From Bryopsis sp. KO-2023 (lineage: Eukaryota; Chlorophyta; Ulvophyceae; Bryopsidales; Bryopsidaceae): a DNA stretch of 64,000 nt. Numbering within the stretch: the stretch's first letter is position 1; every line of letters starts with the position of its first letter. The notes under the pieces are model-generated. The model ran no database searches and was not told the origin of the DNA. It worked only from the letters and a program-made list of their open reading frames with translations. A program made the translations under genes and the position numbers. This document shows, piece after piece, positions 4,757-38,849 of this stretch. The stretch is taken from assembly GCA_030272585.1 (NCBI GenBank), contig BSYQ01000016.1, positions 1 through 64,000 on the forward strand, read 5' to 3'.

Positions 4757-4803
4757 TGCACCCGACGAGACTCGAACTCGCAACCCTCAGATCCGAAGTC
4801 TGA
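4757..4803 (-). pseudogene. 3' part of a tRNA-Arg(TCG) gene (positions 27-73)
   Basis: On the minus strand this reads a complete anticodon arm (TCAGA-CTTCGGA-TCTGA, anticodon TCG), variable loop, T-arm (GCGAG-TTCGAGT-CTCGT), 3' acceptor strand CGGGTGC and discriminator A. The D-arm and 5' acceptor strand are absent next to it. They are found 34 kb away at 38749-38776, where the 5' strand GCACTCG pairs over all 7 bp with this 3' strand (one G-T wobble). Together they make a canonical 75-nt tRNA. The break lies between positions 26 and 27, with one shared base (C26) at both junctions. As it stands the gene is dead. Confidence 0.8.
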
Positions 4804-6162
4804 GTGGCACGTTGGAATCCTGAGAAATCGGGAATAGGTTGAAAAAATCGGAATAGGAGCGAAAGAAAGCTAGGAAATAGATAGAAGTCACCGAGCCGGT
4901 GTGCGAGGACCTCTGAGAGTGAGAACGCTGGTCGCGGTGTTTTGATCGGAGTAGTATTCGGCCTGTTACGGGCTTTTTTCTTTTTTCTGAGCGATATTTT
5001 TTTGGTTGTTTGGTTTGTTTCTCGCGGTGAATACACTGGAACGAGTTTTTCGTACGTGTTGGTGGCGGTGCTGCCTTGTTTCTATCGGCTGCGTGCGTTT
5101 GTAGCGTTGCTGGTGGAGTTTTTTGAATCACTTTTTTGATTTTCGAGCGAACTGGTGGTATTGCGCCCAAGAGGGAGTGGTGCTGCGTTGGGATTGGTCT
5201 GCTACGGTGTGGTAGCGAGAAAGGGTGACCGTGCTGCTCTTTTTTCGTCCTGTTTGTTCGCTCTTTGGATTGCTGACAGTTTGACGACCGGCTGGATTAC
5301 TCTAACCGCTTTTTGATAAGTGTTTGGATATTACGCAAGCTCTGGCGAACGTGCTGCACGATCGTGGTCTACAGGTTGTGCGCGACGGTTGGAGGTATTG
5401 TCTCTGCTCTTGCTCGGAGTGATTGACTGGGAAGGAAAGGAAAGATCAGGGAAAGTACGGTACAGGAACTCGTTTTCTCGCTTTTGGCTGCTTTCGTTTG
5501 GATTCTGTGACCTTGATACTTGCTGTTCTGCCCTGGTGTTGGTGGGCTTGGTTTTGGTGTGCTCTGGTAAGGTTTTGGCCGACGCGTTTGGTGTTTGCCG
5601 GGACGGAGGAAAAAGAACGAGTGGGAAAGATCAGCTTTGCGCTTTTATTTTCGACGTTAGTCCGATTCTATTTTGGTATTGGTGTGAAAGAGCTGCTGGT
5701 TGCTGAGTCCTGACGCTGTAGAACGACGAGGGCTTGGCACTGGTGAGCAAAAGAGAGGAATATAAAGAAAAAAGACGGTGATCGGCTGGGCGGAGCCACA
5801 AAAAGACTTCATTTAGACTAGAACAGGAAAAAGAAAAGACAGAAAAAAGACAACAGGAGTAGTTTTTGATCGACGGAGCCACTGGTTGCTTAGTCCTGAC
5901 GCTGTAGAACGACGAGGACTAAGCCCTAGTGCGCGAAAAGAACAGAACGCCGTCGGAAAAGAAAAGAATCAGGGGAAAACAAACGGAAATTCCATCGACT
6001 GACGACTTATTCCGAGCCCATTTACTCGCTCGAAGTCGCTTTCACAGGATCAACGGAACAACTGCCTCAGAAACTTGTCGCAGTCCTCTAACGAGAACGT
6101 CACACCTTCCTGCGACCACTCACGCAACTCGGATCTGTGAACGAAACGATTAACTGAGAAAG
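4804..6162 (+). other. Putative LINE 5' leader
   Basis: This stretch lies between the tRNA-Arg 3' half and the first LINE ORF and has no convincing gene. A 36-bp block containing AGTCCTGACGCTGTAGAACG is present at 5695-5731 and again at 5882-5917, about 186 bp apart. That fits the repeated monomers some LINEs carry in their 5' UTR promoter. Several short open frames here lack recognisable motifs. Confidence 0.5.
5695..5917 (+). repeat. Duplicated block in LINE 5' leader
   Basis: The core AGTCCTGACGCTGTAGAACG followed by ACGAGG occurs twice, at 5707 and 5892, with one mismatch in the flanking bases. Period is about 186 bp. A promoter role is inference. Confidence 0.7.
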
Positions 6163-6909
6163 ATGGCACCAAAGACGAGGAGCAAGGAAAAAAGATCGGC
6201 TCGCGAGGCGAGCGAAACGCACGATATGACAGACGAGGTTGCGTCCCCTTCTGCTGAGCGTGGAAAGAGGCGAGGAACGAACATGGACGCGATCTGCCGA
6301 CGTCTCACCTCGGGAACGAAATCCGTTGGTGGATCGGTTGGAGGCAGTGTTTGCGATCCAGGAGACTTGGGATGGGATACAACTGAACCTACTGGAAATG
6401 AAACTGTGGGGAAGAATATTGGAGACACTGAGTTGATAGAGAGGAGGAGGCCTGCTGGTGGTACTTCTGGGGAGCTTGGACATGCTGGAGAACATGCCCA
6501 ACTGTCTGCTCCAATTACAGCACAGGATGTACAGACACTACAAATTGAAACTCAATCAGATGGTGACCTCCCTACTGAACCTGAATCCACTTCAAAGAGG
6601 AAGAAAAAACCCAATGTACACACTACACAAGGGAGAAGGCCTGCAGGCACTGCTGGTGGTGATTCTACACCGAAATCCACTATGATTCCACCAACTGCCC
6701 CCAATGTTGCTGCTGCTGCCTCTATTCCTCCAGTTCGGGTTCCTGATAACCCCTTTGGTTCCCCTTTGGCTCCGGTGGATACATCAGTCCCAATTCATTT
6801 TTCTACCCCTCCTGGATCCCCCACGGCTCCTCGTTCTGATCATGGTCACCCTGAAGGATCAGCACCTCCTAGCTCTGCTGCTCTCCAAGATGTTGTCAAT
6901 GAAGTGAAG
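6163..6909 (+). pseudogene. LINE ORF1, 5' segment (interrupted)
   Basis: Starts at ATG 6163 and runs 249 codons until element A is reached at 6910, where the LTR supplies an immediate stop. The N-terminus is basic, followed by a Pro/Ser/Thr-rich, probably disordered region. The frame continues exactly after both LTR insertions are removed: 14 bases at 16994-17007, then 32369-33569. Total length would be 654 codons with the stop. It would package LINE RNA as an ORF1p-type chaperone. That role rests on the downstream coiled coil and RRM-like part, not on this segment. Confidence 0.72.
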
Positions 6910-7090
6910 TGATAGTGAAGCTTGTGGGTGACACAATAGTGGTCGGCTGTGTTGGTTGGATTCGTGATAACTTGCTGGCTAACGCAAGTATACTTGTGGG
7001 GTTTGTTGGTTTAGACAACTCTCTAGCTAGCGCGGTTGTGAACGCTACTAGAGCACTTAGGTTGGGAAGTGATTGCGTCAGGCAAACACT

Positions 7091-7123
<33 letters not shown>

Positions 7124-7334
7124 AGCGGGAACACACCAATCCCACGAATCCCGAGTTCTTACAAAGTAACTATATGTGTCAAAACAACGAGTGGGCCTCT
7201 TAAGTACCCCTAAGTGTAGTACGCTGACGCATGCCCCAAACTCTGGGTCTAATCTGTCTTACTCGTGAACCCACATGCGTCAGCCACCCTCGGCTCTATC
7301 CCAAACTACCTCGTATAGCGCTAAAAGACTAACA
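6910..7334 (-). repeat. 3' LTR of element A (425 bp)
   Basis: Direct repeat of 16584-16988. Begins TGTTAGTC and ends CACTATCA in element orientation. Contains a CA/TG microsatellite about 20 bp longer than in the other copy. The same family reappears at 63638. Confidence 0.95.
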
Positions 7335-7529
7335 TACGCCCCCCCCGCAAAAAGTGGGCGCCCACGCACACCAAAACACAAAGAAAAACAAAAACACAAA
7401 AACACAAACACAAAACTCACCCACTCCCATACCCACACCCAACTGTCTTGGACCTGTCTCTTGCTCTGACGTCTCTGACAGCTGCTGCACGCACACACTT
7501 GGTCGACGATAACTCCGGTTCCCTCCTCC
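7335..7529 (-). other. Element A 3' non-coding region with polypurine tract
   Basis: Non-coding stretch between ORF3 and the 3' LTR. The polypurine tract (eight Gs in element orientation) abuts the LTR, where plus-strand priming would start. A short match around ACTGTCTTGGAC recurs in element B near 17424, supporting kinship of A and B. Confidence 0.75.
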
Positions 7530-8903
7530 TTAACGCTGTTCCTGCGCTTGCGCTTGCGGAATAGCACGCTGCTCCTGCGCATGCGCTTGCTGCACTGCAC
7601 GATACCGGACACAGGGATCAAATGCGGCAGCCACCCGCTTGGACTTAAGGAATGGCAGATCCCTTGTGATGCCGGACACCTTGAGCTGCCGCTTCACACA
7701 CATGTTGCAGTGTGGCAACTTCTCGTGCTCAGCCGGGAACGAAGGGATTTCTTCGAACGTCGAGCGTGTCAGCTTCAACATATGGGCAGGTAGAGAGAAT
7801 GGGGAGACGGTGGCGATGGACTTGTTGTCCACTTCTGCGACTTTTTGGACCGCCGTGACGATGCGCCCCAGCATCGAGTATGCCAACCAGTGAGCATCAC
7901 ACACGAGGTGATACCCACAAGGAAGGACGGAATACTTCTTCTGCGTCAGCCGCTGAGCACTTGCCTGCATTGGGCTTCTCCCGCACCAAATGCACATGGG
8001 CAACTCGTGAAAGTGCCGGTTGCCGCGGTAATTTTGCAAGGCTCGGTCCCTGGGGTTAGTATATTGGACCTTCGGCCATTTCTCTGACGCAGTGATGGGG
8101 TTGCAAGCCTCCTCGATATCCTCCCGTGACAGGTTCACTTCGCTGGGTGCAGCATCCACTTTGTCCTGAGCAGCCGCCCTTAGTCTTCTGAGCTTAACCT
8201 TTTCTCGGAAAGCCCGAAGTGCTGCTTCTGTTGGAGCTAACTCCAACGGTGGATGGACCGCACGCTGAACCTCTGTCACCTGGCTTGGCCCTTCATCATT
8301 CCTTATTTCCCCGTCCTCCAGTTCAGAACTAGGACCTTCGAGCCTAGGAGGTGGACTGCCGAAGTCAATTTCTTCGTTAAAATCCAAGTCCAAAAGCTCC
8401 TCCTCTCTCATGTCGAATAAGTCCTCCCCCGGTGCTATTGCGGTAGCCTCATCTCCGGGAGTCTGAACTGTTGGTGCTGGTTGTGAGGGTGCTGGAGTCT
8501 TTAATGCGGCAGCCTTTAACTTGAGTAACAAGTTGGCTCTTGCTGCATCTCCAGGCATACGATCCCTCGGTGGCTCACCACCTTCATCGTCACCGTCCTC
8601 TCGCCTTCTCTTTCCGTGTGGATCTTCATCCCTACACGGCGAGCTTGGGCGTTTGTTTTTCCCTTTCCCCTTGCCCTTGCTTGAGCCTCCCGCATCATCG
8701 TCCTTGGACGGTTCCAGATCAAGTGTTGCGTTTGACAACAGAACTTGGACTTGGCGATCCAGTTCTTCGCGTACCCGTGGTGCTGGTACCGCCGGGTTCA
8801 AACGCAGCATCTTGTCCGTTGTTTCGCTCTGCACTTGAAGTTTTTCAGAGCCGTCTCTGAGGGACTCTCCCAGCAAATCGGTCTGCAGCTCTTGTTCTGC
8901 CAA
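7530..8903 (-). CDS. Element A ORF3, C-terminal part: RING-like zinc protein
   Basis: A 457-residue frame downstream of pol on the same strand, where some LTR elements keep an env-like or accessory gene. Visible parts: helical N-terminus, a Lys-rich NLS-like stretch near residues 76-102, acidic and Pro-rich middle (150-220), a charged helix (228-250) and a zinc cluster. Cluster residues are C303/C306, C328/H331, C334/H337 and C398/C401. The first six fit a RING-type CX2C...CX2HX2CX2H pattern, but the gap to the last pair (60 residues) is longer than a typical RING. No membrane segment, so not an envelope protein. No standard ATG start is seen. The frame is open upstream and overlaps ORF3a, so it is probably expressed with it. 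Function unknown. Confidence 0.62.
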   Translation of the reverse strand: MAEQELQTDLLGESLRDGSEKLQVQSETTDKMLRLNPAVPAPRVREELDRQVQVLLSNATLDLEPSKDDDAGGSSKGKGKGKNKRPSSPCRDEDPHGKRRREDGDDEGGEPPRDRMPGDAARANLLLKLKAAALKTPAPSQPAPTVQTPGDEATAIAPGEDLFDMREEELLDLDFNEEIDFGSPPPRLEGPSSELEDGEIRNDEGPSQVTEVQRAVHPPLELAPTEAALRAFREKVKLRRLRAAAQDKVDAAPSEVNLSREDIEEACNPITASEKWPKVQYTNPRDRALQNYRGNRHFHELPMCIWCGRSPMQASAQRLTQKKYSVLPCGYHLVCDAHWLAYSMLGRIVTAVQKVAEVDNKSIATVSPFSLPAHMLKLTRSTFEEIPSFPAEHEKLPHCNMCVKRQLKVSGITRDLPFLKSKRVAAAFDPCVRYRAVQQAHAQEQRAIPQAQAQEQR

Positions 8904-8944
8904 TTCCTTCTTCAGGTTGTTGGCTGCTGCACTCCACGCGGTTG

Positions 8945-9427
8945 CTACAGCTCGCTGCAGCGTTCCTCTACCGCGGTAAATCGATCCACCATTCCCCCGA
9001 GAGCTTGTTTACGGAGGTCATTCTCACGATGGTTAGCCATCATGTGAGATTGGAACCTTTGCTTTTTCAGCTTCATGGCTTCCAATTTTTCTTCCAAGAC
9101 CTTGGTCTTGTCCTCCGCTTCTTTCTTTTCCGCCTCCGCCTTTTCCTTGGCTTTCTCCGCTGCCTCCTTCGCAGCCTCAGCTGCTTTCGTCCGGTCACTC
9201 AACTCTGAGAGCTGCCGGGTTAAGGCCTCATTGTTCTGCAGCACTTCCTCTGCGGTCGACGTAAAGTGCTGCAGCTCCTCTTCTTTTTGAGCTACCTCCG
9301 CTTCCAACCTCGCAATAATTGCGGCGGGTGTATCGGCAGCCATTATGTTCGTCGGAAAGAAAGAAATAACAACGGTTTGTGCGTCTTTAGACTCTTTTTT
9401 ACTCAGGAGCTCGCTCCGTTCACACAA
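8945..9427 (-). CDS. Element A ORF3, N-terminal part: coiled-coil protein
   Basis: A 160-codon frame about 365 bp past the end of pol. An internal ATG at 9343 begins a more natural protein. From there it is one long Glu/Lys/Ala heptad coiled coil, ending at a stop just where the next frame (ORF3b) takes over. ORF3b is in the -1 frame and open across about 75 bases of overlap, and its first residues continue the helical character. Either a one-base indel has broken a single ORF3 of roughly 600 residues, or a frameshift joins the halves. Confidence 0.6.
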   Translation of the reverse strand: MCERSELLSKKESKDAQTVVISFFPTNIMAADTPAAIIARLEAEVAQKEEELQHFTSTAEEVLQNNEALTRQLSELSDRTKAAEAAKEAAEKAKEKAEAEKKEAEDKTKVLEEKLEAMKLKKQRFQSHMMANHRENDLRKQALGGMVDRFTAVEERCSEL

Positions 9428-9792
9428 ACACTAGGGCAAAATGGTTCGAGGGCTGCGCTTATAAGGCTGGGTGACTCGTACACTTTCCTCGTTGAGTTAT
9501 TGGGGTGAGACACCAACGTTTCGCTCGGTTGGAGTCTCGTCAAGACCACCTCAACACGTCACTTGATAGGGGTTTTCTCGGAACAACCACACTATCTCGA
9601 ATGTGACATCGTTTGCCCGGTTTCTAAAGTACTACTGAAGCTACACTTACTGCGCCAGCCAAATAACTTAGGCACCTAACGCATTAAAGTTAAAGAGTTG
9701 GTTTGGAAGTCGACAGAGTTTTTCTAAGGTATCCTTTTTCGCGCCCCCTTGCTATAAGGAGTTCCACCTTAGCCATCAAACACTCTGTTTCC

Positions 9793-12700
9793 CTATTCTC
9801 TTCCTTTCTGCAACTCTTTTCTTTCTTTCTCTTTAAATGCGCGAAGTATATCTGGTGCGTTAACCAGATTAGCTTCAGGTTCCCAAGTAGCGTCAAGTAG
9901 ATCGTATCCTTTCCACAGCACTAGGTATTCGCGATTGCGTTTACCTCTAGCCCTTAGGATAGTTTCGACCTCATACTCTACTTCGCTACCAATCAACTCT
10001 CCTTCTGGAGGTTGTATTTGCCTGCTGTTATCACTCGAGGCGTGATAACGCTTGAACTTAGAAACATGAAACACTGGGTGAATGGGCCATGTTTCCGGAA
10101 GTTGAACTCTGTAAGCCACCTTTGATATTTTCTCCACAATTTCAAAGGGACCCACAAATCGACGGCGCAGTTTGGGACTCACTTTGTTCAAAGCAGCCAA
10201 CGGAATAAAACGGCTTTTTATCAGGACTTTATCCCCTTTTTCAAAAGCAATATCTTTCCTCTTCTTGTTTGCACTCACACACATTCTGTGTTGTGCTCTA
10301 GAGTAATATGCTTTTGCGGTATCTAAGTCCTGTGCCATCCGTGCTACCATAGTCTTAACTGCTTCCACCTGAAATTGCGTTGCCGTCCCACCAATGTTTG
10401 GTGTTTCTGGATGGTACCCATACATCAAGTATGCAGGTGCGAACCCTGTACTCGCATTCACTGCATTGTTTGCTGCAAACTCTGCTGTAGGTAAATACTC
10501 AACCCACTTATGGGGATACCTCTCAGCATATGGCCTCAGGAAATTTTCCAGAGTACGTATGGTAACCTCACTCTGCCCATCCGTTTGAGGGTGGTAAGCT
10601 GTACTCATACGAATCTCTGTACCCAGAGCTTTAAAAAGCGTCTGCCAGAACTTGCTGGTAAAGCGAGGGTCTCTATCAGACACAATCACTTTAGGTAGGC
10701 CATGGTTGCGGTAAACATGTTCGATAAAAAGTTGGGCGTATCCTGCAGCGGTAATCTCTTTAGTACATGGGGCGAAATGCACAAACTTGGTAAGTCTATC
10801 GACAAAGACAGCTACAGCACTAAACCCATTGGATGCTGGTAGATCTGTCACCAAGTCAGTGGTAATCTGCTCCCACTTCCGCTCAGGTATTGGCAGGGGT
10901 TGAAGTAAGCCCATAGGCTTCTGTGTGTCAGCCTTTATTTGTTGGCACACAGGGCATTCGCGCACAAATGCCTTCAACTCATTCATCCACCCCTTCCACC
11001 AATATCGCCGCGCTAGGATTTCTCCTGTTCGCGCTGGTCCTGTATGGCCTGCTGAAGGTGTCTCATGGCACTCCTTCATAATCTTATTGCGCTGGCCTTT
11101 AGGAACCACCACTTTCTCGACTAATCCTCTCTTTGGGACCGTCCAGAGTATTCCCTCTCTGAGGAAATATCCCTCAACTTCCTCGCCACTCTCAAGCTTC
11201 CGCAATATCTTCACCAAGGAGTTATCAGCTTGGAGGGCTTGTTTCCACTCGTCTTGGCTTGCTTGATGCACTTGCCAAGTGGAAATGTTCATCGCAGTTT
11301 CCACGGGCTTAGGAACACTGCGGGAGAGAGCATCTGCTAACACATTAGCCTTGCCTTTGATATAGGAGATCTTGGGGTTGATCGAAGTCAGGTACCCCGC
11401 CTCAAGCCATCTTGCTTGGGTTCTAGAAAGGTTCCTCTGCGACAGAATATGCGTCAGAGGTTGGTGGTCAGTGAACACTGTTACTCCACCCGCACAACCT
11501 TCTAGATAATGTCTCCACTGCACCATCGCATAACATATTGCACACAACTCTTTGTCGTATGGTGCATAGTTAAGCTCGGCAGGCTTGAATCTACGTGAGA
11601 GGTAAGCTATTGGCTGTAGCCCCTCTCCGTGATCCTGTGTTAACACGGCACCGATGGCCTCATTCGACGCATCAGTGATCACAGTGTAAGGCAGTGACGC
11701 ATCTGGAAAAATAAGGACGGGAGCTTGACTTAGACGCTTTTTCAGTTCATTGAATGCGCCACGCTCAACCTGTCCCCATCTCCAGGGATGGTCTTTTTTC
11801 ACTAAGTCATGGAGTGGTCCAGCAATATGTGCAAACTGGGGAATGAATTTCCTGTAGTATGAAACCATTCCAAGGAAACTACGTACATCGCTAACACTCT
11901 GTAGTTCCTTCCACTCCTTCACTGCCTTCACTTTTTGTTCCTGTGGTTCTAACCCACTTCCGCTAATGCGGTAGCCAAGATAGTCTACTGTTGCGACAGC
12001 CAGCTCACTTTTACTTGCCTTAGCAAAAAGCTGATATTCTGCTAGTCGCGACAGGACTTTCTCTAAGTGTTCGGCATGCTGTTCCATGTTTTCAGAGAAG
12101 ATGAGTATGTCATCAATAAAGACAACAACAAAATCATCTAAAAACTCTGCGAGTAGGTCTTGCACTAGAGTTTGGAATTGCGCTGGGCAATTGGTTAGCC
12201 CAAAAGGCGCTACCAAAAACTCAAAGTGACCGTATCTCGTGCGGAACGCTGTTTTATCTGTATCAGATGGCCTTACTGGAAATTGCCAATAGCCTGATCG
12301 CAGATCTAACTTCGAGAACACTTTGGCTTTAAACACTCTATCCATCAATTCTTCTGGCAGGGGTAAAGGATATCGGTTTTTCACCGTCACCTTATTGATC
12401 CACCTGTAATCCACACACATCCTTAAGCCTCCATCCTTTTTCGGGACAAACAGGATTGGCGCGCCCCAAGGGGACTCGGATGGTTTGATTTTCTTCTGTT
12501 CCAGAAGGTAGTCCACTTGTGCTTTCACTTCATCCAGCTCTGCTGGTGAAAGCTTGTATATTGGACGATGGATAGGTGTTGGATCCTCCAGGTCTATCTT
12601 AAACTCATGACCTTTTCTCTTCGGAGGGATCCCTGGGGGTAAATCACGAGGGAACACACCACGGTGTGTTTCTACCACCTTTTTAATTTCGGCAGGGGTG

Positions 12701-13804
12701 TCTGAACGAATAAGTTTGCCAATCTCATCCTCAGTGTTGAATGGCTGTGTTCGCTCTATTGCGTCAGGCAATTCATGTTGGCCTAAAGCTTTCTCTTCAG
12801 ACTCTTGCACTACAACCATGAATGCTGTCTCTGTTTTGAGATGACGCATCATTCTCTTAGCTGAACACTCAGTCACTGGCACTTCTTGCAGTATCGACTG
12901 TACTTTTCGTTCAGGTTCAATACTCTCTTGGGTTGGATGACGCAACGGGAGATGAAACACTTGGCTGTTTTTGCAAACTGAAATCTCATTTTGCTGAAAG
13001 TCTATGCGGGGGTTTTCTTTCTGCAACCAAGGCATGCCCAATATTAGGTCATAACCAAGGTCTGGGAACAGATCCGCTCTCATTTTGCACTTCAGCCCTC
13101 CTATCTTTACTCGGAGGTTGTTACAGCTGCCAGCCAGTTCTTTAATATCTCCGTTTGCCAACATTGCTCTCTTTGAGCTTGGTGTAATCGACAACCCGAG
13201 ATCACGCGCTACCTTATCATTGATATAGTTTGCGGTACTCCCACAATCAATGAATGCATAAAGGTCCGTGGTCTTGATCCGTGCTTTTACTTCGTACCCT
13301 CTCACAGGCACTTCTTGAATTTTTAACAGAGGGCATGTGTCACCCTTGGTTGACGAAGTTGATCGAACTTCTGACACATTAACTCGCTCTGTGGTAGACC
13401 GCTGGGTTGTTTCTGACCCACTATCGTCTATGTCTGCAGGCAGGGACTCCTGTAGACTACTCTGTGACTCCAATGAGCCCACAGATTCACTAACAGAGGG
13501 AAGAGATGCAGATGACGCATGAGGCGCGTCCATCTCATCCGGTGTGCTTTCCTTCTGTTCATTTTTCCAATCGCAGTTGTCATGTGCCGATTGGGTAGAT
13601 GTGGAGAGTGTCTCTGTTCTCTCTTCACGCGGTGTACTAGTCCGCGCCCCAGGTTTTCCGCTGTGAGTACAAACCTTTTTCGAGGCACCTACTTTTGATC
13701 TTAGCTTCCTACGCCGCCTACGAACTCTGTTTCGCTTACGACGTTTGCGTCGGCCAGGCTCAGACGAAGCAGTTTCCTGCCTGGCGGTCAGTTTAACATT
13801 TTTT
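9793..13804 (-). CDS. pol: Element A pol polyprotein
   Basis: The frame is open from the gag end; its first Met is at 13533, giving 1246 residues. Domains in order: aspartic protease with a DCG motif (FIDCGSTANYI) instead of the usual DTG/DSG; reverse transcriptase (VDYRWINKV, KLDLRSGYWQ, VFIDDILIFS); RNase H (DASNEAIGAVL); integrase with HHCC finger and D,D,E core (YHPQTDGQSE); GPY-like region (RRRFVGPFEIVEK); C-terminal chromodomain (EYLVLWKGYD). The chromodomain marks a chromovirus and in that group can guide integration to particular chromatin. It lies in the -1 frame relative to gag and the A8 run at the gag end is the likely shift site. No internal stop seen. Confidence 0.93.
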
Positions 13805-16439: not shown

Positions 16440-16569
16440 GATTTCCCAGCCACTATTTGGGAGTACTCAACAACCACGGTTGGAGTTTCTCTCTACCAAA
16501 CAAACAAACAAAAACGTTTGTTGCGCCACGTTCACAAGTTTCGATCTCAAGAACTTAAAGTTCTTGCCT

Positions 16570-16581
16570 GCTCCGAAACCA
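16570..16581 (-). other. Primer-binding site of element A
   Basis: TGGTTTCGGAGC in element orientation, two bases inside the 5' LTR. It would pair with a tRNA ending GCUCCGAAACCA. The same 12-mer is the PBS of elements B, C and the TRIM. Confidence 0.85.
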
Positions 16582-16583
16582 AT

Positions 16584-16988
16584 TGATAGTGAAGCTTGTG
16601 GGTGACACAATAGTGGTCGGCTGTGTTGGTTGGATTCGTGATAACTTGCTGGCTAACGCAAGTATACTTGTGGGGTTTGTTGGTTTAGACAACTCTCTAG
16701 CTAGCGCGGTTGTGAACGCTACTAGAGCACTTAGGTTGGGAAGTGATTGCGTCAGGCAAACACTTAACACACACACAAGCGGGAACACACCAATCCCACG
16801 AATCCCGAGTTCTTACAAAGTAACTATATGTGTCAAAACAACGAGTGGGCCTCTTAAGTACCCCTAAGTGTAGTACGCTGACGCATGCCCCAAACTCTGG
16901 GTCTAATCTGTCTTACTCGTGAACCCACATGCGTCAGCCACCCTCGGCTCTATCCCAAACTACCTCGTATAGCGCTAAAAGACTAACA
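16584..16988 (-). repeat. 5' LTR of element A (405 bp)
   Basis: Matches 6910-7334 apart from a shorter CA microsatellite. Followed outward by the TSD TGAAG. Confidence 0.95.
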
Positions 16989-17007
16989 TGAAGGGTATCA
17001 GCTCGGA
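16989..17007 (+). pseudogene. LINE ORF1, 14-bp middle segment between elements A and B
   Basis: After the element A TSD (16989-16993) only 14 bases of LINE ORF1 remain (16994-17007), the last five being the element B TSD TCGGA. They encode Gly-Ile-Ser-Ser plus two bases of the next codon and keep the ORF1 frame on both sides. Confidence 0.85.
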
Positions 17008-17216
17008 TGATAGTGGGGTGTGTGGTGGAAATAAATTTTCTACATACTCCCCCTGGGAGCGTTCCCCTACAACAGCGAATCCAACCAAAACAACAACCCA
17101 ACCAGTGTCTAACTACGTGTCCCTTAAATAGTACCCTAGGGCTATCACGAGTCACACTAATGATACAAGTCACCTCAACGCTCCCAGACCAGTCATTTCG
17201 TCTCAAATCACTATCA
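17008..17216 (-). repeat. 3' LTR of element B (209 bp)
   Basis: Identical by eye to 32155-32363. Its last bases (CACTATCA in + orientation) mirror its first (TGATAGTG), giving 8-bp inverted ends. Confidence 0.94.
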
Positions 17217-23286: not shown

Positions 23287-23548
23287 TTAAAAGTTCAACC
23301 TTTATATCGCAACTTTACCCCCTTTTGCGAACTTTCCTTTTCCCTTTAGGCCTAATATGCAAAATCTAAGTTTTTCCAGTCGATAACAGCGTTAGCTTCG
23401 CTATCCTCATATCCTGCTGATGCAATACAGCTTTTTGCAGGCACGATACTGTCGTCAGCTGTTGCGTTCATTTATCTTTTACCCTTGGTGGCTAGCTTGG
23501 CGCATTTTCCTTGTTTCGCCAGCCTCCATCCTTTTTCGCGTCAACCAC

Positions 23549-23911: not shown

Positions 23912-23913
23912 AG

Positions 23914-23925
23914 TGGTTTCGGAGC
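23914..23925 (+). other. Primer-binding site of element C
   Basis: TGGTTTCGGAGC, two bases after the 5' LTR, the same 12-mer as in A, B and the TRIM. Confidence 0.85.
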
Positions 23926-24005
23926 GAAGTGTACAGGGCTACACCCAAACGATCGGGCAGCCTGTGATATTGGGTTCATCGTGAGAGACCGGGGGAAGAA
24001 CCAGA

Positions 24006-30118: not shown

Positions 30119-30436
30119 GAGGACTTCAAGAGTTGAAGAGTGAGTAAATGAAAGATATCCCTGCAGAGACATGGGAATGAGAAGAGAATTTCAGTCTATG
30201 ACTGTTGGGGGTTCAGGGGAGTTGGTGTTAGTGCTGAGGCCAGGTCAGCTGTTTTCTTTTCTACTGTCTTTGGGATGGTCTTTCAGATGGGGTTTTTCCT
30301 TTTTGCTTTCTGGAGGGTCTTTGGGATTTTCCTTTTTGCTTATGGGGGAGTGCTCTATTTCTTTGCTGGAGTCTGTATGTGCTTAGTTGGTGACCTTAGG
30401 TCTGGGGGGCCAGATTTCTAAGGTCAGGGGGAGTCT
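30119..30436 (+). other. Element C 3' non-coding region
   Basis: Between the pol stop and the 3' LTR, with repeated T-rich CTTTTT/GGGATTTTCC strings and a purine tract at the LTR edge. No gene seen. Confidence 0.7.
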
Positions 30437-30799
30437 TGTGACAGTTCTAAAGTGCGAGAGGTGGGATTTGATCCCGGGACCTCTCAGTGTCGAGTACAGT
30501 AACGGTCGCAAGTGCGAACCATGTGCTACGGTTGTCATGTCGGTTAGGTCGGTTGTGTAGCCGCCTGACCCATGACGTAATGAGTGAGGTGTGATGGAAC
30601 GGATGACTGTATGTGTGACTGTATCTGGACGGTGTAGTCCAGGGTCACGTGAGTGAGAGTTACAGCCAGTTACGGTTGTGACCGTTGACGGGATTCGAAC
30701 CCGGGTCAACGGTTGGCCGGTCTTAAGGCTCTAGGCCTTTGGACCAGGTGTTCACGTTTGTAATATTCCTTAAGTCTTTCCATTCCCCGCGTCCTTACA
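30437..30799 (+). repeat. 3' LTR of element C (363 bp)
   Basis: Identical by eye to the 5' LTR. Followed by TSD ACCAC. Confidence 0.95.
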
Positions 30800-30804
30800 A
30801 CCAC

Positions 30805-32154
30805 ATACGTTCTCTTGGTTTTCGCGTCAGCCACACATGTTCTCTATTATCCTACTTGAGAACACTTGAACACAACGCTCTCCCAGCCTCTTGGGATGAT
30901 ATTCGCCACCGCCACCATCACCTCCGCCATCAGGCGCACCTGGAATGCGGGGGTGTAACTAAGGACGGGTTCGCCTATCGCGGTGGTCATCACCTCCCTC
31001 ACCATCTGGCTTATCGTCACCAGGAACACCTCCTATACCTTCTCGCTTCCTGGCGCTTGCGTTATCCCAAGCAAGTTTATCGACTTGAACGCTTTTTCCA
31101 CGTTTCCCTGAATGTCCTGACGCGTTTTCTCTCTGTTGCGCGAGACACAAATGAGAGTAACGCATTTATATATACCTCTCTGCCTTAGGAGTTGCGAGTT
31201 TCGCCTATCACAAATTTCTGTGAAGACGACCTTTGCTGCTGCAACCATAGGTTGGCGCAGTTGTCCTTCCACACTTCTGTGGAGACAACCTTTAAAACAA
31301 CAGGTTGGCGCAGTTCGGCTTTTACCACATTTCTGTGGACGAACTTTTCACAATTGCGCCAGCCGTTCCCTTAGTCGTTTTCACGCCGACCTTTTCACAA
31401 TTGCGGCAGCCATTGCCTTGGTCGTTTTCACGCTAAAGTTAACGTGCCGCGCGCTCTGGCAGTTAGATTTTTCGACTTGCAGCGCGTTTTTCTGTGGGTC
31501 ACACTTTCTGGAGTGACCAAATGAGTCATGCCGACAGTTCCTGGCGCAGTTTTCTATAGTCTTCTATAGTTAGCGCAGAACTTGGCGACTTAGGCGAATT
31601 TGGTCGACAAAGCTAAGGCTTCTTCGCCTAGCAAGTCCTCAGACTTAGGTGGAGGTAAGGCTTAGTTTTGGGCTTTTAAGAACCCTTAAAAAGCCTTTCT
31701 GGAGGTTCCTGTGAAATCTAGCTCCAGGGGCTTAAATTTCCAGGTCTACTCTCCTCAAGAAAACAGACAGAGGTCCTCTTTTCTCTTTCTGTCTCTTTTC
31801 CTCCCCTTGTCGACTCTTTTCGTTTCGAGATCGAGGGTTTTTCGACCTGTCGATCTTTTCATCGACCTGGGATCTCTATCGCCCAACTTTTCACGTCGAA
31901 AATTTTTCGGCCCTCTTCTTTCCGCGACGTTGGGAACCCGTTGGGAACCCTCTCGCCTTGGTTTCGCCTGGCCTACTTCAGGGATACCCCTGGAAAAACA
32001 ACCTCCTCCCTGTCGACAGATCTTTTCGTCTAGATCTTTTCAAAATCGATCTTTCTATCCAATTTTTTTTTTCCTTTTTTTCACTCCCGTTTCGTTTTCG
32101 ACCACCACGACCTCTTGAGGAGCGACGTCGATCGACCCCAGCTCCGAAACCAAT
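30805..32154 (-). other. Element B internal region, right (5') part
   Basis: Holds the short element-A gag match (30890-31030) and a series of degenerate repeats around GGTTGGCGCAG and TTTTCACAATTGCG at 31190-31430. The PBS is at 32141-32152. No intact ORF. Confidence 0.65.
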
Positions 32155-32363
32155 TGATAGTGGGGTGTGTGGTGGAAATAAATTTTCTACATACTCCCCC
32201 TGGGAGCGTTCCCCTACAACAGCGAATCCAACCAAAACAACAACCCAACCAGTGTCTAACTACGTGTCCCTTAAATAGTACCCTAGGGCTATCACGAGTC
32301 ACACTAATGATACAAGTCACCTCAACGCTCCCAGACCAGTCATTTCGTCTCAAATCACTATCA
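32155..32363 (-). repeat. 5' LTR of element B (209 bp)
   Basis: Identical by eye to 17008-17216. TSD TCGGA follows at 32364-32368. Confidence 0.94.
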
Positions 32364-32368
32364 TCGGA

Positions 32369-33569
32369 CCTGTCTACTGCCTTACAAGTTGTGAATCGTT
32401 TGGCTACATCAATGGAAGAACAACAGGCGTGTCTAACTGCTCAAGCAAAGGCGTTTACTCGGGAGAAGGAATTTCGTTTGAATCAAGGGGAACGGATTGC
32501 TGCGCTGGAACGTACCAATGCTACTGCTGCCCAAGCTATGGAGACTTCTGATGGGGAGCTGGCATCTACACAGGAGATGTTTAAGTCACTTACGGCTTTG
32601 ATTACCCAGAAATCTGATCAATCACAAAGAGATGCAAGGGAAAAAGAAAAGGTTATGTTGGCTACTCTGGAGGCTAATCGACAGCAGTCGGAGAACACAA
32701 GACAAGAACTTACTGATTTAATCGCGTCTTCTCAAGCAGCCCACGCCCAGCAGCTTCATCAGGTTCAAACCTCGATGAAAACACTGGAAAACAGTAGCAA
32801 TGCTCGATTCAGCGAACTTCTTCAAAGGGTGGAAAGGGTGGAACAGGGTGGTGGCAGTGGGAGCTCAACACAGTTGGTAGACACGGTTGCTGCCCTGGAT
32901 GCTAAAGTGAATAACCTGATTCAAACCCCAGGTGGTCAGGGTGGAGGGAACACATCACGTTTGGAAGCAGAAGTTGAGGATTTACGTGAAACGTTGGAAA
33001 TTCGGGACCGAGCGAACAAATTGATTTTCTCCAACTTACCAACGACTCAAGGAGAAACCTCGGCTACTCTGACCTCCTCCATCAACTTCCTGATTTCCAA
33101 GCTGGCTGCTAAGGCTGGAGGTCCTTCCATCACCACGGAGTTGGTTGTGTCGGCTTTTCGATTTGGGAGGGGTTCTACTCGCTCTGTGATGGCTACCTGC
33201 TCGACCCCTGAAGCCAGGAACACAGTTCTTACACTGAGGAAGCACATGGAGGCGTTAAAAAACGATATTGGGATGAGAGATGAGGTTAACCTAATGGACG
33301 ATACCTGGGTCCGACCGGATCTAACCTATCGCCAACGAAACTTGAAAGCAGCTTCTCGGGAAATCGAACATCGTTTAAAGAGTTGTTTGGGACAAGAGGG
33401 TCTCTCAGCGGTTTTTTACCGTTCTGGATGTCTGCTGCACGTTCGTATTGAGCCTCCTGGGGGTGCTGGTCGATCCACTCTGATTCCCATTGACGTTAAC
33501 TCTCCCTCCTGGTGGGATGTTCTGCCTCCTGCACTCCATTCCACACTCTCGGCTGCCCCTCCCAGTTGA
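32369..33569 (+). pseudogene. LINE ORF1, 3' segment: coiled coil plus RRM-like domain
   Basis: About 400 codons continuing LINE ORF1 in frame after the element B insertion. A fused frame that also reads through the LTR from 32115 is an artefact of the insertion. It holds a long coiled coil (SMEEQQACL to LQRVERVEQGG), a second short one (SRLEAEVEDLRETLEIRD), then an RRM-like start (NKLIFSNLP) and a basic C-terminal domain (LTYRQRNLKAASREIEHRLK). That order resembles L1 ORF1p: coiled coil, RRM, CTD. In that family it trimerises and binds LINE RNA. Confidence 0.68.
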
Positions 33570-33650
33570 CAATTTGGGTTCTGCCAGGATTCTCATCCTG
33601 ACAGAACCGACGGAGTATTACTGGAACCTGGGGGACATTCGATACGGGCT

Positions 33651-36600
33651 GTGGTGACGAACACGAGGAAAATATATCAACATGTGATGGTGGTTGCAAA
33701 GGAGGGAGGACAGAGCGAACTGCTTGATACCTGCACAAACGTCAACCCAAGTCTGAGTACCCAGCAATTCAGTCAAACACGGGGACTACCTACATCTGGA
33801 CATCAGCAGCAGGCTACAATGGCAAACATCAATGGAAGAGGGGTGAACAACGCACACAACATACAAACAGGCCCCCACAGACATCGTCAACACTCGTTTT
33901 TTCCCCTCAGAGTGGGATTCTGGAATGTTGGTCGTCTATCTCGGAAAAAGCTGTTGGGTTTTTCGGGTCTGCTGGATGAGTTTGATATTCTGGGCATTTG
34001 CGAGTTGGGTACACTTAGCTGGGTGGAGAAAGCTGCTGGTCAGTCCTGGTCGTCTGTTTTGCTGCCCCATCCAAGCTCCAAACATGGTGGTGTTGGTCTT
34101 CTGTGGCGTAAGCTTCCCCACATGTCGGTTCGGGTCATCATGGAACTCAGCTCTCACTGGGTGCTCTGCTGTTCGTTGTCGTTCCAAGGCTTCGATTTGG
34201 GAGTGCTGGTGGTCACCTATAAGCCACACAGGGGGTCAAGATTTACAAGGGAGTTCACATGGGATCATTTGGACACAGTGCTGGTTGGAGTGGGTCTATT
34301 GTCCTCACACATTTTGGTTTTGGGGGACTTCAATACACGGATGGGCCAGTGGCAGGCTGACTCTCTTTTTTCCCTTTTCTCCTTCCCACGAGTTTCAACA
34401 GATTACACTGAACACCCACAGGCTAAGGGCTTCCAGGCAGTCATTCAGCAACACAGTTTGGTTGTTCTCAATGGCAGGGCGTGTTTGGGGGACTCTGAGG
34501 GGCGTACAACTTGGTCTGATGGAAGGACTGCTGCTGTGATGGATTGGGGCTTGTGTTCGCTCAACTGGCTCAAACAGGATGGTCCACATGCAAGGGAAAA
34601 TGAAAGTGACTCTGATTTGGGGGAGGATAATACACCGATACCTGCCCTGGCTGACTGCGTGCTCCTGTTCCGTGTACACGAGATGCTGCCTGAATCGGAT
34701 CATTCCCCTCTCCGAGTGTTGATTTCCAGACCCCCTCCGGATGTTCAGCTATCCCCTGGCCTACAGGACTGTTCCCCCGACTCGATGGTCATCGATTGGT
34801 CTCCAGGAGCGAGTTTTCTATTCTGGGATCGTTTTTGGGTGTGCTACCAAGACGTTTGCAGAGCTCTGATGGATCCCTCTACCCCTTTGGCTGATTCCAT
34901 CGCTATTCTGTCTCGGGGCATTGATGCGTGCTGCGTTTGGCAACCCAAAAGGGTTTCCTCCCCTACTCCTGTTTGGACTCCTGAATGTGAATTGGCTCGG
35001 AAGCGTTTTCGGAAAGCTTGGAGATCCTGGTACAAACAAAGACACCGGTTGGACAGTCATTCGATATGGAATTTGGTGAAGGAAACCAGGCAAATATACT
35101 ATCACATGTTGGAGCTGGAGAAAAAGCAGACGAATCAAACCTACATTCGGCGTCTGGAATCTGCACGAATAACTGATTCACGGTATTTCTATCAGGAGAC
35201 CTTGAATTCACGATCAGTGCCCTCCTGTGATTTGGTGTTGGTGGAGGATTGGACACGGTTCTACACCCAGCTATTTGACTGCCCCCCAGAAAAGGAATTC
35301 CCACATCAGGATGTGCTGTTCTCTCGTTTGAAATCAGTATTGATGGCAGTCAACATAAAGGAGTTCACCTGGGATGACGTTGCACGAGCTTTGGACTCCT
35401 TGAAGGTTCGCTCAGCTCCTGGAAATGATTCACTACATGTATCGTTCTTCCTGGACGGTCGAAAGAGATGGACAAAGCTGCTGCTGCTGGTTGCAAATCG
35501 TTGGTGGGGAGGTCAGGAGGTCCCGCTGGAATGGACTTCTGCACACGTGTTTCCGATTTATAAGGGGAAGGGCTCCAAAACGGATCCATCATCCTACAGG
35601 CCAATCACACTGAGCTCAAACTTCTACAAGATTCTGGCCTATTTGGCGCTGCACCGCCTCCAAGACATTCAATTCCAAAATCGGGGACTTATCAGGATGG
35701 GAGCAAGACATGGGATCACCTGCATTTTCCAGGGAGGGTTCCAACGTCATTTACGACCGTCACATTGGATTCTCGCTCTACTGGTTTTGATTCACCAATC
35801 ACGGCGTTCGAGGAAGACATTATACCTGCTGTTCTTGGACCTCACCAAAGCATTTGACCGGACCAACAGAGCACTCCTGTGGATGGGCCTGGAGCTGCAA
35901 GGAACGCCTCCAGCATTTTTGCTTGCTCTGAAGCACCTGCTGGATGGAGCACAGTTTGCGGTCAAAACACAAGGATATATTACCCCCCCAATCCCCCAAA
36001 GAAATGGAGTTCGACAGGGCTGTCCCCTGTCCCCCGTACTATTTACGACCAGTCATGATCGTTTCTTGTTCTGGTTTCAGAGCATGAACCTTTCCTTCCC
36101 TGTACTACGTTTAAAACCCCCCCCTGTGGCTTCTCGGGTAGCTCAAACATTGGAGAGGAGTTTACATACACAGGATCACGGGTACAGTGGAGAGGGAGGC
36201 GAGGGAAATGGGGAGGATAACCCAGCAACATCTATTCCATCTATTATCAATTCTGGGAGAGAAGGAGGAGGAGTACAGGCATCAGGCGAGGTGACTGCAG
36301 GTAGATCCGGTGGACATTCGACATCACATCTTTCGGGACAACTCAACACAAAGCCTACATTACCTCTGGAGGTGGTGATCCCTGCTCTCCTGTGGGCTGA
36401 CGATACCGCTGGGCTGCTGACGGACCACCGAGACATTGCACCTGCGTTGGAAGCTGTTGATGATTATGGATCTACATTTGGAGTGGAACAGAACCAGGGG
36501 AAGCTCCAAGTGTTGCCCTTCTGTCCAGGAGGCAGGGACACCTACACATACAAAGGCACAGAACATTCGATGAACAGGACAGCGAAATATTTGGGGGTTA

Positions 36601-38309
36601 CCCTGAGTTCATCAGGGAATGTGTTTTCGGTTCAACATTTGGAGATCTACAAGAAGATGGTGCAAAAAACAAAGTGGATTTCGGAAAGGATCAGGATTCT
36701 GGGGATCACAAGTCCAAAAGCGGCGTACCAATTGTTTACTACGGTGGTCCTACCCGGGATTGCGTATGGTTGTGAGCTTTGGTTTCCCTCCATGCCCCTC
36801 CACCTCTTGGCGAAGTTGGAATCCCTCCACTGCCGGTTCATTGAGGCTTGTCTCATGGGAAATGGAGCTTACAGGCGGGGTGCCACCCATCCAGTTTGGG
36901 TTTTACAAGAGAGAGAGAGAGGATCTGGATCAGGGGATTCTTTTGGAGCAGCTGCTGGACTACCTGCACACCCTATACACCACCAACAGGGACAAAGCAG
37001 CACCACACAGGATACAGGGGAAGGAACAGGCAACACAAGGAGAACACAGGAACAATGGAGACAGGCAATTCCTAACTATACCATGCTGCTGATTGAAATG
37101 GGGGCGAAGAGTGTGGAGTTCCATTTGACCAAGCAGCTATTTCGGTTTGTTAACACCCTGCCTGCTCACCCCCATCTCCTGGTGAGGATGGTTACTGCAG
37201 CTCTACCTATAGCAGAGAAGGCAACTGGTTCATGGTTAAGGGATGTCAAAAAAATTACCACCAAATGGGGCATTGAACTCAATTTGGGTCAACCTGGCTT
37301 GGAGGAAGATGACCTGGACGCTATTCTTACCGCTCAAGGGGAGTCCCCGCTCGTTCCACCCTCCTACGCTACTGGCGCCGTTGGGACATCGCCGCAGGGT
37401 CCTCAGCAGGGGTCGCAGCACTCGCAGCATGGGCAGCAGGGAGGGTTTCGGTCGCAATTGGGATGGAGGGAGAGAAAAACACCTGCAGTGGACATTCGTC
37501 AGTGGACAGCGTTATACAAAGCAAAACAGCGAGAGAAGCTAGCAGAGAGCGTTCGGTTCCAGCGTTTCTACAGCAAGGTAAATCCCAATTTAAAACCCTC
37601 ACCAGGGCTGCACTCATTTCCGTCGCGCTTCTCCCGAAGCTTATATCATGGCTTCCGCTTGGGGCTCCACTCCCTGCGCGCTAGGTCGGCCGAGGGGCGC
37701 TGCCCTCTCTGTCTTCGATACGGTCGTGGCGAACTCGCTGGTGAAGGGGGGGGTGGTGCGCGGGGGTTCGGCGGGGAGGATAATGGGACAGCTAACGTGG
37801 ATCTGGAAACGGAATCACACTTCCTGTTTTCCTGTCCGACATTGGGATTCGTTCGAGATCTGACGACCGACATGGAGCTCGCTGGATGTACGACGCTGAC
37901 GGAATTATTCTCGGCGAAGAATCACCGTGGGGTGACTCAGTTAATTCGACGATTAGCACGAGCACGACAGGTGCTGCTGAGTGATTCTACTACAACTTTG
38001 GAGGAGGTACGACGGCAGCTGCTGCGGACGGATCCGCTGTACGTAACGGAGGATACGACGAATGTGAGAGGGGAAGCTGCTGACGGTGACGATCATGGAG
38101 TCGACGTCCGTGATCCTGGCGTCGACGACGACGACGACGACGCAGACGACGCTGACGACGCCGACGTGAACGCGCGCGCTCTCGCAGCGCTGTTTGGGGT
38201 TACGCCCCAGTCTCGGGATGATCACGCTACAGCAGAGCGAGCGACTGGAGGCGAATTCGATCCTGATATCGATTCTGGATTGGTGGAGGGAGTTACTGAT
38301 CCACAGTAA
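33651..38309 (+). CDS. LINE ORF2: APE endonuclease and reverse transcriptase
   Basis: 1552 codons, 81 bp after ORF1. Residues about 80-360 form an AP-like endonuclease: WNVG, ICELG, VLGDFNTRMG and SDHSPL carry the Asn, Glu, Asp/Asn and Asp-His catalytic set. The reverse transcriptase follows: YKGKGSKTDPSSYRPI, FLDLTKAFD (motif A), RQGCPLSPVLF (motif B) and WADDTAG (motif C, with Trp in place of the usual Tyr/Phe). About 120 low-complexity residues are inserted between motifs B and C. A CX2C...HX4C cluster (CPLCLR ... HFLFSC) follows near residue 1350, as in many LINEs. The tail is Asp-rich. No stop or frameshift, so ORF2 may still be active even though ORF1 is not. Confidence 0.92.
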   Translation: MVTNTRKIYQHVMVVAKEGGQSELLDTCTNVNPSLSTQQFSQTRGLPTSGHQQQATMANINGRGVNNAHNIQTGPHRHRQHSFFPLRVGFWNVGRLSRKKLLGFSGLLDEFDILGICELGTLSWVEKAAGQSWSSVLLPHPSSKHGGVGLLWRKLPHMSVRVIMELSSHWVLCCSLSFQGFDLGVLVVTYKPHRGSRFTREFTWDHLDTVLVGVGLLSSHILVLGDFNTRMGQWQADSLFSLFSFPRVSTDYTEHPQAKGFQAVIQQHSLVVLNGRACLGDSEGRTTWSDGRTAAVMDWGLCSLNWLKQDGPHARENESDSDLGEDNTPIPALADCVLLFRVHEMLPESDHSPLRVLISRPPPDVQLSPGLQDCSPDSMVIDWSPGASFLFWDRFWVCYQDVCRALMDPSTPLADSIAILSRGIDACCVWQPKRVSSPTPVWTPECELARKRFRKAWRSWYKQRHRLDSHSIWNLVKETRQIYYHMLELEKKQTNQTYIRRLESARITDSRYFYQETLNSRSVPSCDLVLVEDWTRFYTQLFDCPPEKEFPHQDVLFSRLKSVLMAVNIKEFTWDDVARALDSLKVRSAPGNDSLHVSFFLDGRKRWTKLLLLVANRWWGGQEVPLEWTSAHVFPIYKGKGSKTDPSSYRPITLSSNFYKILAYLALHRLQDIQFQNRGLIRMGARHGITCIFQGGFQRHLRPSHWILALLVLIHQSRRSRKTLYLLFLDLTKAFDRTNRALLWMGLELQGTPPAFLLALKHLLDGAQFAVKTQGYITPPIPQRNGVRQGCPLSPVLFTTSHDRFLFWFQSMNLSFPVLRLKPPPVASRVAQTLERSLHTQDHGYSGEGGEGNGEDNPATSIPSIINSGREGGGVQASGEVTAGRSGGHSTSHLSGQLNTKPTLPLEVVIPALLWADDTAGLLTDHRDIAPALEAVDDYGSTFGVEQNQGKLQVLPFCPGGRDTYTYKGTEHSMNRTAKYLGVTLSSSGNVFSVQHLEIYKKMVQKTKWISERIRILGITSPKAAYQLFTTVVLPGIAYGCELWFPSMPLHLLAKLESLHCRFIEACLMGNGAYRRGATHPVWVLQERERGSGSGDSFGAAAGLPAHPIHHQQGQSSTTQDTGEGTGNTRRTQEQWRQAIPNYTMLLIEMGAKSVEFHLTKQLFRFVNTLPAHPHLLVRMVTAALPIAEKATGSWLRDVKKITTKWGIELNLGQPGLEEDDLDAILTAQGESPLVPPSYATGAVGTSPQGPQQGSQHSQHGQQGGFRSQLGWRERKTPAVDIRQWTALYKAKQREKLAESVRFQRFYSKVNPNLKPSPGLHSFPSRFSRSLYHGFRLGLHSLRARSAEGRCPLCLRYGRGELAGEGGGGARGFGGEDNGTANVDLETESHFLFSCPTLGFVRDLTTDMELAGCTTLTELFSAKNHRGVTQLIRRLARARQVLLSDSTTTLEEVRRQLLRTDPLYVTEDTTNVRGEAADGDDHGVDVRDPGVDDDDDDADDADDADVNARALAALFGVTPQSRDDHATAERATGGEFDPDIDSGLVEGVTDPQ

Positions 38310-38748
38310 CCAGAAAAACAGAAAGAGTATTCAGAAAAACAGAAAAACTTAACAACAGACCAAAGAAAAATACCAAACAGACCTAGAGGGACTTTCTTTT
38401 TTGAGGAATTGCATTCAGCATTTGGGTAAACAAGAGAATCAGATTACAGAAAGGGAAAACAGGGATGAGGGACTTAAATTTTTTGGAAGAACTGCACTCA
38501 GCACTTTGGTAAACATGGGAATCAGAGGTTCAGTACTTCTTAGACATGGGATATTTACTTTTTTGGGTTCCTAAAGAAAAAACAACGATTCTGATCCGAT
38601 TTTGTCCTTGATTTTGATTGACTTCGGATCTTGCGAACAGTATATTTTGGTAGTGGGGCACTTTAGTCGGACATCGAACATTGGTATTATTACAGGGAAA
38701 AACAGCCGAGTGTAGGCTGACTTCCCTTTTGATCGAACCCATGTAATC
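38310..38748 (+). other. LINE 3' UTR
   Basis: A-rich just after ORF2. Two degenerate copies of a 60-bp block (GAGGGACTT...GGAAT) lie at about 38386-38446 and 38468-38528. The last 30 bases include GATCGAACCC, an antisense B-box-like string. No poly-A end at the tRNA junction. Confidence 0.55.
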
Positions 38749-38776
38749 GACGCTGATTCCATTGCGCCACGAGTGC
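38749..38776 (-). pseudogene. 5' part of a tRNA-Arg gene (positions 1-26)
   Basis: Minus strand reads acceptor GCACTCG, TG, D-stem GCGC, D-loop AATGGAATCA, D-stem GCGT and C26, with a consensus A-box (TGGCGCAATGG). It ends exactly where the anticodon stem should start; the remaining 47 bases lie at 4757-4803. See that entry for the pairing argument. Confidence 0.78.
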
Positions 38777-38849
38777 ACACGATTTCTTGGCCCAAGTTAC
38801 GTATTTTGAGGCAATTTGGATCAGATTTATCCGAGCGGGAACAGCTTCG

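Follow-up and report, generated by a model that had tools for sequence, protein, structure and literature searches.

Long interspersed nuclear elements (LINEs) do not always insert at arbitrary positions. R1 and R2 recurrently enter ribosomal DNA (rDNA) at one nucleotide of a tandem multicopy RNA gene, of which intact copies persist beside disrupted ones; insertion may cost some target DNA at the junction, and the arrays tolerate lost rDNA genes, which unequal exchange can replace. Elements of the Tx1 clade occupy other RNA loci: Mutsu is found in 5S rRNA genes, Keno in U2 genes and Dewa in the tRNA-Leu spacer, and spliced-leader and telomeric targets are also known for sequence-specific LINEs. 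Here we describe LINE-Arg, a LINE that interrupts a tRNA-Arg(TCG) gene in a 64,000-nucleotide stretch of DNA (hereafter the window) from the ulvophycean alga Bryopsis sp. KO-2023. The window forms the beginning of contig C16 (BSYQ01000016.1, positions 1 to 64,000), opens with 2.8 kb of CCCTAAA telomere repeat, and was compared with the genome assembly (GCA_030272585.1; 91 Mb, 28 contigs). We consider it very probable that LINE-Arg is a target-specific element inserted inside tRNA-Arg genes, antisense to them and at a fixed nucleotide.

The published accounts closest to this locus, cited here from the portions accessible in open-licence PubMed Central, place target-specific LINEs in rRNA, 5S and U2 genes, in the tRNA-Leu spacer and outside tRNA genes (PMC3706591, PMC4640811, PMC5391098), while tRNA genes are named among LINE targets in general (PMC8869645). 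The spacer inhabitant is Dewa (PMC3706591), and the Dictyostelium TRE elements integrate outside tRNA genes, at a distance of about 50 bp on the upstream or 100 bp on the downstream side (PMC5391098). Utopia, a LINE of U2 small nuclear RNA genes in oomycetes and other organisms, comprises several low-copy families, and in Phytophthora disrupted genes outnumber intact ones (PMC4640811). Insertion inside tRNA genes is described for Dada (PMC3706591, PMC8869645), a group of DNA transposons with a DDE transposase and 6-7 bp target-site duplications (PMC3706591), whose families have separate tRNA targets, five lineages falling at nt 8-13 (PMC8869645). Within these accessible texts only Dada occupies the tRNA body, and we found no report of a LINE there. 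Relative to them, the novelty lies in the target, that is the tRNA body at the A box and D arm, and in the presence of three such families side by side; the element itself belongs to a known kind.

An intact tRNA-Arg(TCG) gene of this genome has 73 nt, reads GCACTCGTGGCGCAATGGA-TAGCGTA-TCAGACTTCGG... and is called by ARAGORN in six loci (listed in Table 1). In the window the gene is split into nt 1-19 and nt 27-73, and TAGCGTA (nt 20-26) is absent. Compared with unfilled copies, the 5' junction of the LINE lies at nt 26/27 and its 3' junction after nt 19. CTGA is present at both borders and leaves their exact alignment slightly ambiguous, and comparison of the borders with unfilled sites reveals no clear target-site duplication. 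Among the matches listed, the two halves of unfilled sites keep a constant distance: the 3' half lies exactly 7 nt away in 21/21 unfilled 5'-half matches, and 21 of the 22 unfilled 3'-half matches have their 5' partner 7 nt away. The filled site has therefore lost nt 20-26. These counts leave out nine filled 5'-half rows and eight 3'-half rows (five filled array sites, C5:2.76 Mb, C8 and C18), and each match list comprised 30 candidates, so that uninterrupted sites number at least 21. The exception without a 5' partner is a rearranged gene at C5:6979 kb (L036); one of the 21 unfilled sites, at C9:5609 kb (L033), is altered at its 3' end, and ARAGORN makes no call there.

An earlier note, made from the letters of the window, had read this locus as a LINE placed exactly between positions 26 and 27 of a 75-nt tRNA gene whose halves overlapped by one base, C26. 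Its 3' piece at 4757-4803 on the minus strand is indeed nt 27-73. Its 28-nt piece at 38749-38776 has to be divided: 38758-38776 (19 nt) is host tRNA, and 38749-38757 is the LINE 3' end. Nine of the bases summed to 75 nt thus belong to the LINE tail, and the D arm seemed complete because this tail (ACGCT in LINE sense) resembles the lost strand. Instead of a one-base overlap there is a 7-nt loss of target. The placement between nt 26 and 27 holds for the LINE 5' end but not for the 3' end, and the site moves from beside the anticodon arm to the A box/D-arm region. Nor is there a single LINE of 34 kb between the two pieces: nested long terminal repeat (LTR) elements split it, and copies elsewhere join position 6909 almost directly to about 32359.

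The constancy of these junctions extends across the genome. A 438-base query from the 3' untranslated region (UTR) finds nine genomic places, all ending at the same LINE base, and all nine have nt 1-19 of tRNA-Arg next to them, with one mismatch in two cases (C5:2.77 Mb and a diverged copy at C5:6.885 Mb). The LINE tail itself is the same at seven of the nine; the C9 and C5:6.885 Mb ends have diverged. Six places are found with a 597-base query from the 5' end, and in each of them tRNA-Arg sequence starts from nt 27. Three copies have no recovered 5' end: one on C10 lies at the contig end, a truncated C9 copy adjoins array spacer, and at the diverged C5:6.885 Mb copy only the 3' end is recognised. 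A scan with a 17-nt LINE 3'-end pattern, allowing up to three mismatches, gives 251 places against 47 for the reversed pattern; only its seven exact places were used, the 438-base query being cleaner. The 3' junction is therefore constant in one target (9/9), with none elsewhere, and insertions are found both in tRNA-Arg(TCG) of a first tRNA array and in tRNA-Arg(TCT) of a second, with different flanks. The idea that a LINE targets tRNA genes and enters the tRNA body, also put forward in the earlier note, is borne out, and the searches suggested there agree: intact paralogues exist, no 3' end of the family lies outside the tRNA-Arg genes, and the unfilled halves listed are properly paired, apart from the rearranged gene.

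Some tRNA-Arg genes are altered in other ways. The L033 gene (about position 6150 of that locus) is a rearranged tRNA-Arg(TCG) with a foreign 3' end, near which some letters look, by eye, like the LINE 3' end; the L036 gene (about 3400) is rearranged with a foreign 5' part. At about 2842 of locus L031 (C8:5.37 Mb), a diverged tRNA-Arg 3' half is followed by sequence that by eye slightly resembles the LINE 5' end, and no LINE match was present within the 6 kb examined.

Freed of nested DNA, LINE-Arg measures about 8.5 kb and contains two open reading frames (ORFs) (Table 1). ORF2 carries an APE-type endonuclease domain and a reverse transcriptase (RT) domain similar to LINE-1 and R2 proteins in PDB. 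The repeat scan of the window shows no repeat of at least 150 bases at the LINE ends, which fits the non-LTR type; a LINE-type RT, the lack of LTRs and an endonuclease domain within the RT polyprotein all place the element among non-LTR retrotransposons. Pfam gives no family at its cut-off for ORF1 of the window and no transposase match for ORF2, and a search of IMG/VR for relatives returned none. The ratio of nonsynonymous to synonymous substitution rates (dN/dS) is 0.16-0.19 in ORF1 (two comparisons) and 0.25 for ORF2 codons 1-886 between the window and the C5:2.77 Mb copy, the latter as would be expected of movement as a coding element. The nested insert, about 25.4 kb, holds two LTR retrotransposons with gag-pol ORFs and with Pfam matches to gag, protease, RT, RNase H, integrase and chromodomain; a 209-nt direct repeat within it, with copies 15 kb apart, suggests a third nested LTR element.

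The copy at C5:2.760-2.773 Mb sits at the edge of the second tRNA array. On its 3' flank, array 2 runs from nt 19 of tRNA-Arg(TCT) outward (719-column alignments, 88-90% identity). On its 5' side, 36 nt are 100% identical to tRNA-Arg(TCG), against 30/34 for the TCT genes of array 2. This is most simply read as a LINE RNA that brought along part of its donor tRNA, the 5' end being attached elsewhere while target sequence was lost.

Two further LINE families occur in tRNA genes. The best matches of ORF2 outside the LINE-Arg family (best 30 of 375 candidates) lie in the same tRNA arrays. The Ser family is found inside tRNA-Ser(GCT), with GGTCAAGGCGT on both sides as a 10-11 bp duplication; its second copy, at C5:6.893 Mb, is old and follows a diverged tRNA-Ser 5' part. 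The Val family has four 3' ends, of which three were inspected: one in tRNA-Val(CAC) on C10 with a 10-13 bp duplication, one in tRNA-Val at C9:5.39 Mb, and one in tRNA-Ile(TAT) at C5:2.82 Mb, where the neighbouring tRNA-Ile genes are intact (the fourth is at C10:5.105 Mb). Relative to the tRNA, each of the three families is inserted antisense, with 3' junctions between the end of the A box and the first base of the anticodon stem. Taken together, tRNA gene pieces adjoin 14/14 inspected 3' ends out of the 15 found. As a small control, six 3' ends of dispersed LINEs, representing two or three families, were scanned on the 3' side over about 190-880 bases past the end: none (0/6) has a tRNA called by ARAGORN, the flanks are unrelated, and most of these ends finish in short repeats followed by unrelated DNA. 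The dispersed RTs are 28-31% identical to that of LINE-Arg, and an RT tree splits the three tRNA families from three dispersed sequences with support 97/98; as far as such a tree can tell, a common origin of the three tRNA families is permitted, not shown.

Array 1, near the ends of C5, C9 and C10 (L024-L036), consists of tandem units with a regular spacing of 11.0-11.5 kb, larger or smaller where interrupted. Its unit comprises about 27 different tRNA genes (26 counted in the L025/L026 unit, plus one Val gene of other units that was probably cut by a stretch boundary), and array sequence flanks the filled sites on both sides. Array 2 (C5 2.78-3.77 Mb) has units of roughly 3-3.5 kb in its regular stretches, with up to 12 tRNA genes: Asp, Ser, Leu, an unassigned tRNA of 87 nt, Arg TCT, Thr, Pro, Thr, Ile TAT, Leu, Glu and Ser. 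In the accessible portions of the literature, mixed tRNA genes form tandem arrays in Entamoeba with at most five genes per unit (PMC2652664), and units of one to three genes are described in Phytophthora infestans (PMC9584435); the array unit of about 27 genes is longer than either. On present evidence we lean slightly towards a general picture in which at least three divergent LINE families of this host are specialised on the tRNA A box/D arm, can switch between isotypes with that sequence in common (Arg TCG to TCT; Val CAC and Ile TAT), use, in the Arg family, a 5' guide derived from the donor tRNA, and find their niche in mixed tandem tRNA arrays.

Several known systems share parts of this organisation. 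R1 and R2 resemble LINE-Arg in their insertion at a fixed nucleotide of multicopy tandem RNA genes with coexisting intact copies, and differ in that the target of LINE-Arg is the body of a tRNA gene. R2 also differs in its restriction-like endonuclease. An APE domain is present in LINE-Arg, as it is in R1 and Tx1 elements according to the consulted part of PMC4640811, which does not correspond to the R2, NeSL and Utopia type; no search aimed at a restriction-like domain was made. By target type alone, Tx1-type LINEs are comparable in being specific to small multicopy RNA genes, although Dewa uses a spacer rather than the tRNA body. The Dictyostelium TRE5 and TRE3 elements are likewise LINEs dependent on tRNA genes, whereas the junctions described here are inside Arg, Ser, Val and Ile genes. 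Utopia keeps several families in one small RNA gene, but with a restriction-like endonuclease and U2 as target. Dada provides the parallel of several families with separate tRNA targets; it consists, however, of DNA transposons, and ORF2 is an endonuclease-RT protein rather than a DDE transposase.

A mechanism for LINE-Arg can be proposed from these junctions. The predicted APE-type endonuclease would nick after nt 19 on the tRNA-sense strand, immediately beyond the A box (GTGGCGCAATGGA^TAGCG), and the freed 3' end would then prime reverse transcription at the 3' end of the LINE RNA. Nucleotides 20-26 would be lost because the second strand is broken at nt 26/27. Upstream tRNA sequence carried as a passenger by the LINE RNA would pair with the target, keeping the 5' junction identical. 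The element may persist because its targets are tandem multicopy arrays, which would tolerate a lost gene and in which unequal exchange can replace one. A role of the LINE 3' tail as a primer-annealing sequence is unsupported, as the ACGCT resemblance lies upstream of the presumed nick; this resemblance of tail and target could be chance. Should the A box be what the endonucleases recognise, they would constitute compact nickases for a conserved promoter element of RNA polymerase III (Pol III), as well as a test case for shifts of target specificity between tRNA isotypes. More generally, these are selfish elements tied to long mixed tRNA arrays, and insertion into tRNA genes looks like a way to live in genes with many host copies.

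Among the alternatives, a LINE without target preference that entered an array unit once by chance, its copies then arising through unequal crossing-over and exchange between subtelomeres, is very improbable: one copy lies in tRNA-Arg(TCT) of the other array with different flanks, two other families sit in tRNA genes with duplications of their own, and 0/9 3' ends fall outside a tRNA gene. Part of the copy number may nonetheless have arisen in this way, and here several observations weigh against our interpretation. C15 and C16 have a subtelomere in common (the first 6.9 kb, at 94%), and the layout is the same in two C10 copies (C10a and C10b); several of the filled copies are probably copies of one another. 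Array flanks are common to most LINE-Arg copies, so exchange may have multiplied few insertions, and by our estimate independent events may number only two to four. The 5' end is recovered for 6 of 9 copies only. LINE-Arg lacks the target duplication seen in the other two tRNA LINE families; the second Ser-family copy is diverged, its junction is not clean and its exact position cannot be placed; and the RT tree is unrooted, with six rows and one very long branch. At C5:2.77 Mb, no match to the array stretches examined and no tRNA are found beyond the 36-nt passenger, so the 5' side of this copy would have formed by deletion or rearrangement; an unusual local gene of TCG type is the less likely explanation of the 36 nt.

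Less credible still is a split or giant-intron tRNA, or tRNA-like ends belonging to the element itself. The LINE tail (ACGCTGAT) does resemble the D-arm strand that was lost, and at C5:2.77 Mb, too, the element is accompanied by the 5' tRNA piece, but the arrays contain at least 21 uninterrupted sites, ARAGORN calls the tRNA at six loci, and array flanks stand on both sides of filled sites; with intact copies in existence, we reject a split or intron-containing tRNA. A more serious contender, though in our view unlikely, is that the LINEs are steered by the Pol III machinery, with TFIIIC on the A and B boxes as for Dictyostelium TRE5-A, and that the position follows from the geometry of the complex. 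All three divergent families use tRNA genes, the Val family occurs in two isotypes that have the A box and D loop (AGTCGGTTA) in common, and TRE5-A needs the B box (PMC5391098, in the part accessible). LINE-Arg sites are nucleotide-exact and inside the gene, however, whereas TRE elements lie tens of bases outside, and GTGGCGCAATGGATAGCG is common to both LINE-Arg targets, Arg(TCG) and Arg(TCT). Steering of this kind would be a variant of the mechanism and would leave target specificity itself unaffected.

Besides the full-type element, a shortened variant of LINE-Arg is found in three copies on C10 and in further copies at C5:6.90 Mb and on C9 (loci L019, L020, L021, L024 and L028). It shares the LINE-Arg 3' end and, where present, the 5' end and ORF1. 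In its ORF2 the endonuclease is absent and so is most of the RT, yet the frame stays open over up to 824 aa. Functional retention of this remnant finds no clear support, with dN/dS at 0.72-0.81 between variants and at 0.45-0.56 against the C-terminal part of the window ORF2, compared with the lower values of ORF1 and full-type ORF2 given above. Judging from these ratios, weak constraint on the remnant together with a constrained ORF1 is as expected for a non-autonomous passenger.

Table 1. Features of the interrupted tRNA gene, of LINE-Arg and of the adjoining array sequence in the window.
Feature	Positions	Strand	Basis
3' part (nt 27-73) of interrupted host tRNA-Arg(TCG)	4757-4803	-	sequence match; intact copies in L024, L025, L026, L029, L034, L035
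5' part (nt 1-19, through A box) of interrupted tRNA-Arg(TCG)	38758-38776	-	genome comparison
LINE 3' terminus GACGCTGAT; resembles lost target TACGCTA	38749-38757	+	genome comparison of 3' ends
LINE 5' segment (5' UTR and start of ORF1 region)	4804-6909	+	comparison with other copies
LINE 3' segment (rest of ORF1, ORF2, 3' UTR)	32359-38757	+	comparison with other copies
LINE ORF1, broken by nested insert	32359-33569	+	653 aa in two C10 copies
LINE ORF2, 1540 aa, endonuclease and reverse transcriptase	33687-38309	+	ORF and Pfam
APE-type endonuclease domain (ORF2 aa 79-234)	33921-34388	+	Pfam PF03372, E=1.1e-06
Reverse transcriptase domain (ORF2 aa 631-798)	35577-36080	+	Pfam PF00078, E=7.5e-15
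Nested insertions splitting the LINE	6910-32358		comparison with other copies, Pfam, repeat scan
tRNA-array unit remnant: tRNA-Ile AAT, tRNA-Thr AGT, tRNA-His GTG and spacer	38777-40950		array similarity 38758-40131 and 40670-40950
Spacer of the array unit, opposite flank of the tRNA, with telomere-like CCCTAAA tract	4452-4756		array alignment

Some minor features of the arrays and of the window were also recorded. The telomere-like CCCTAAA tract at 4452-4551 is part of the array unit, at about 200-300 bp from tRNA-Arg(TCG), and the alignments of C5 and C9 array copies take it in. Scattered matches of array-2 type occur on C12. Spacing in array 2 is irregular at several intervals on C5 (3.67, 3.72 and 3.75 Mb). 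An extra 2.7-kb stretch between units, the one examined for further LINE insertions (L062, C5:3723400-3726100), contains no tRNA and no LINE similarity. The 87-nt tRNA-like gene, for which ARAGORN gives a four-nucleotide anticodon (cata), appears in 5/7 array-2 loci scanned, at about 536-639 in L047, L048, L050, L051 and L052 and not in L046 or L054; it is perhaps an intron-containing tRNA. Elsewhere in the window, a hAT-type transposase ORF (PF05699) lies at 59357-61600 on the minus strand, and an inverted copy of the LTR of a nested element at 63636-63873.

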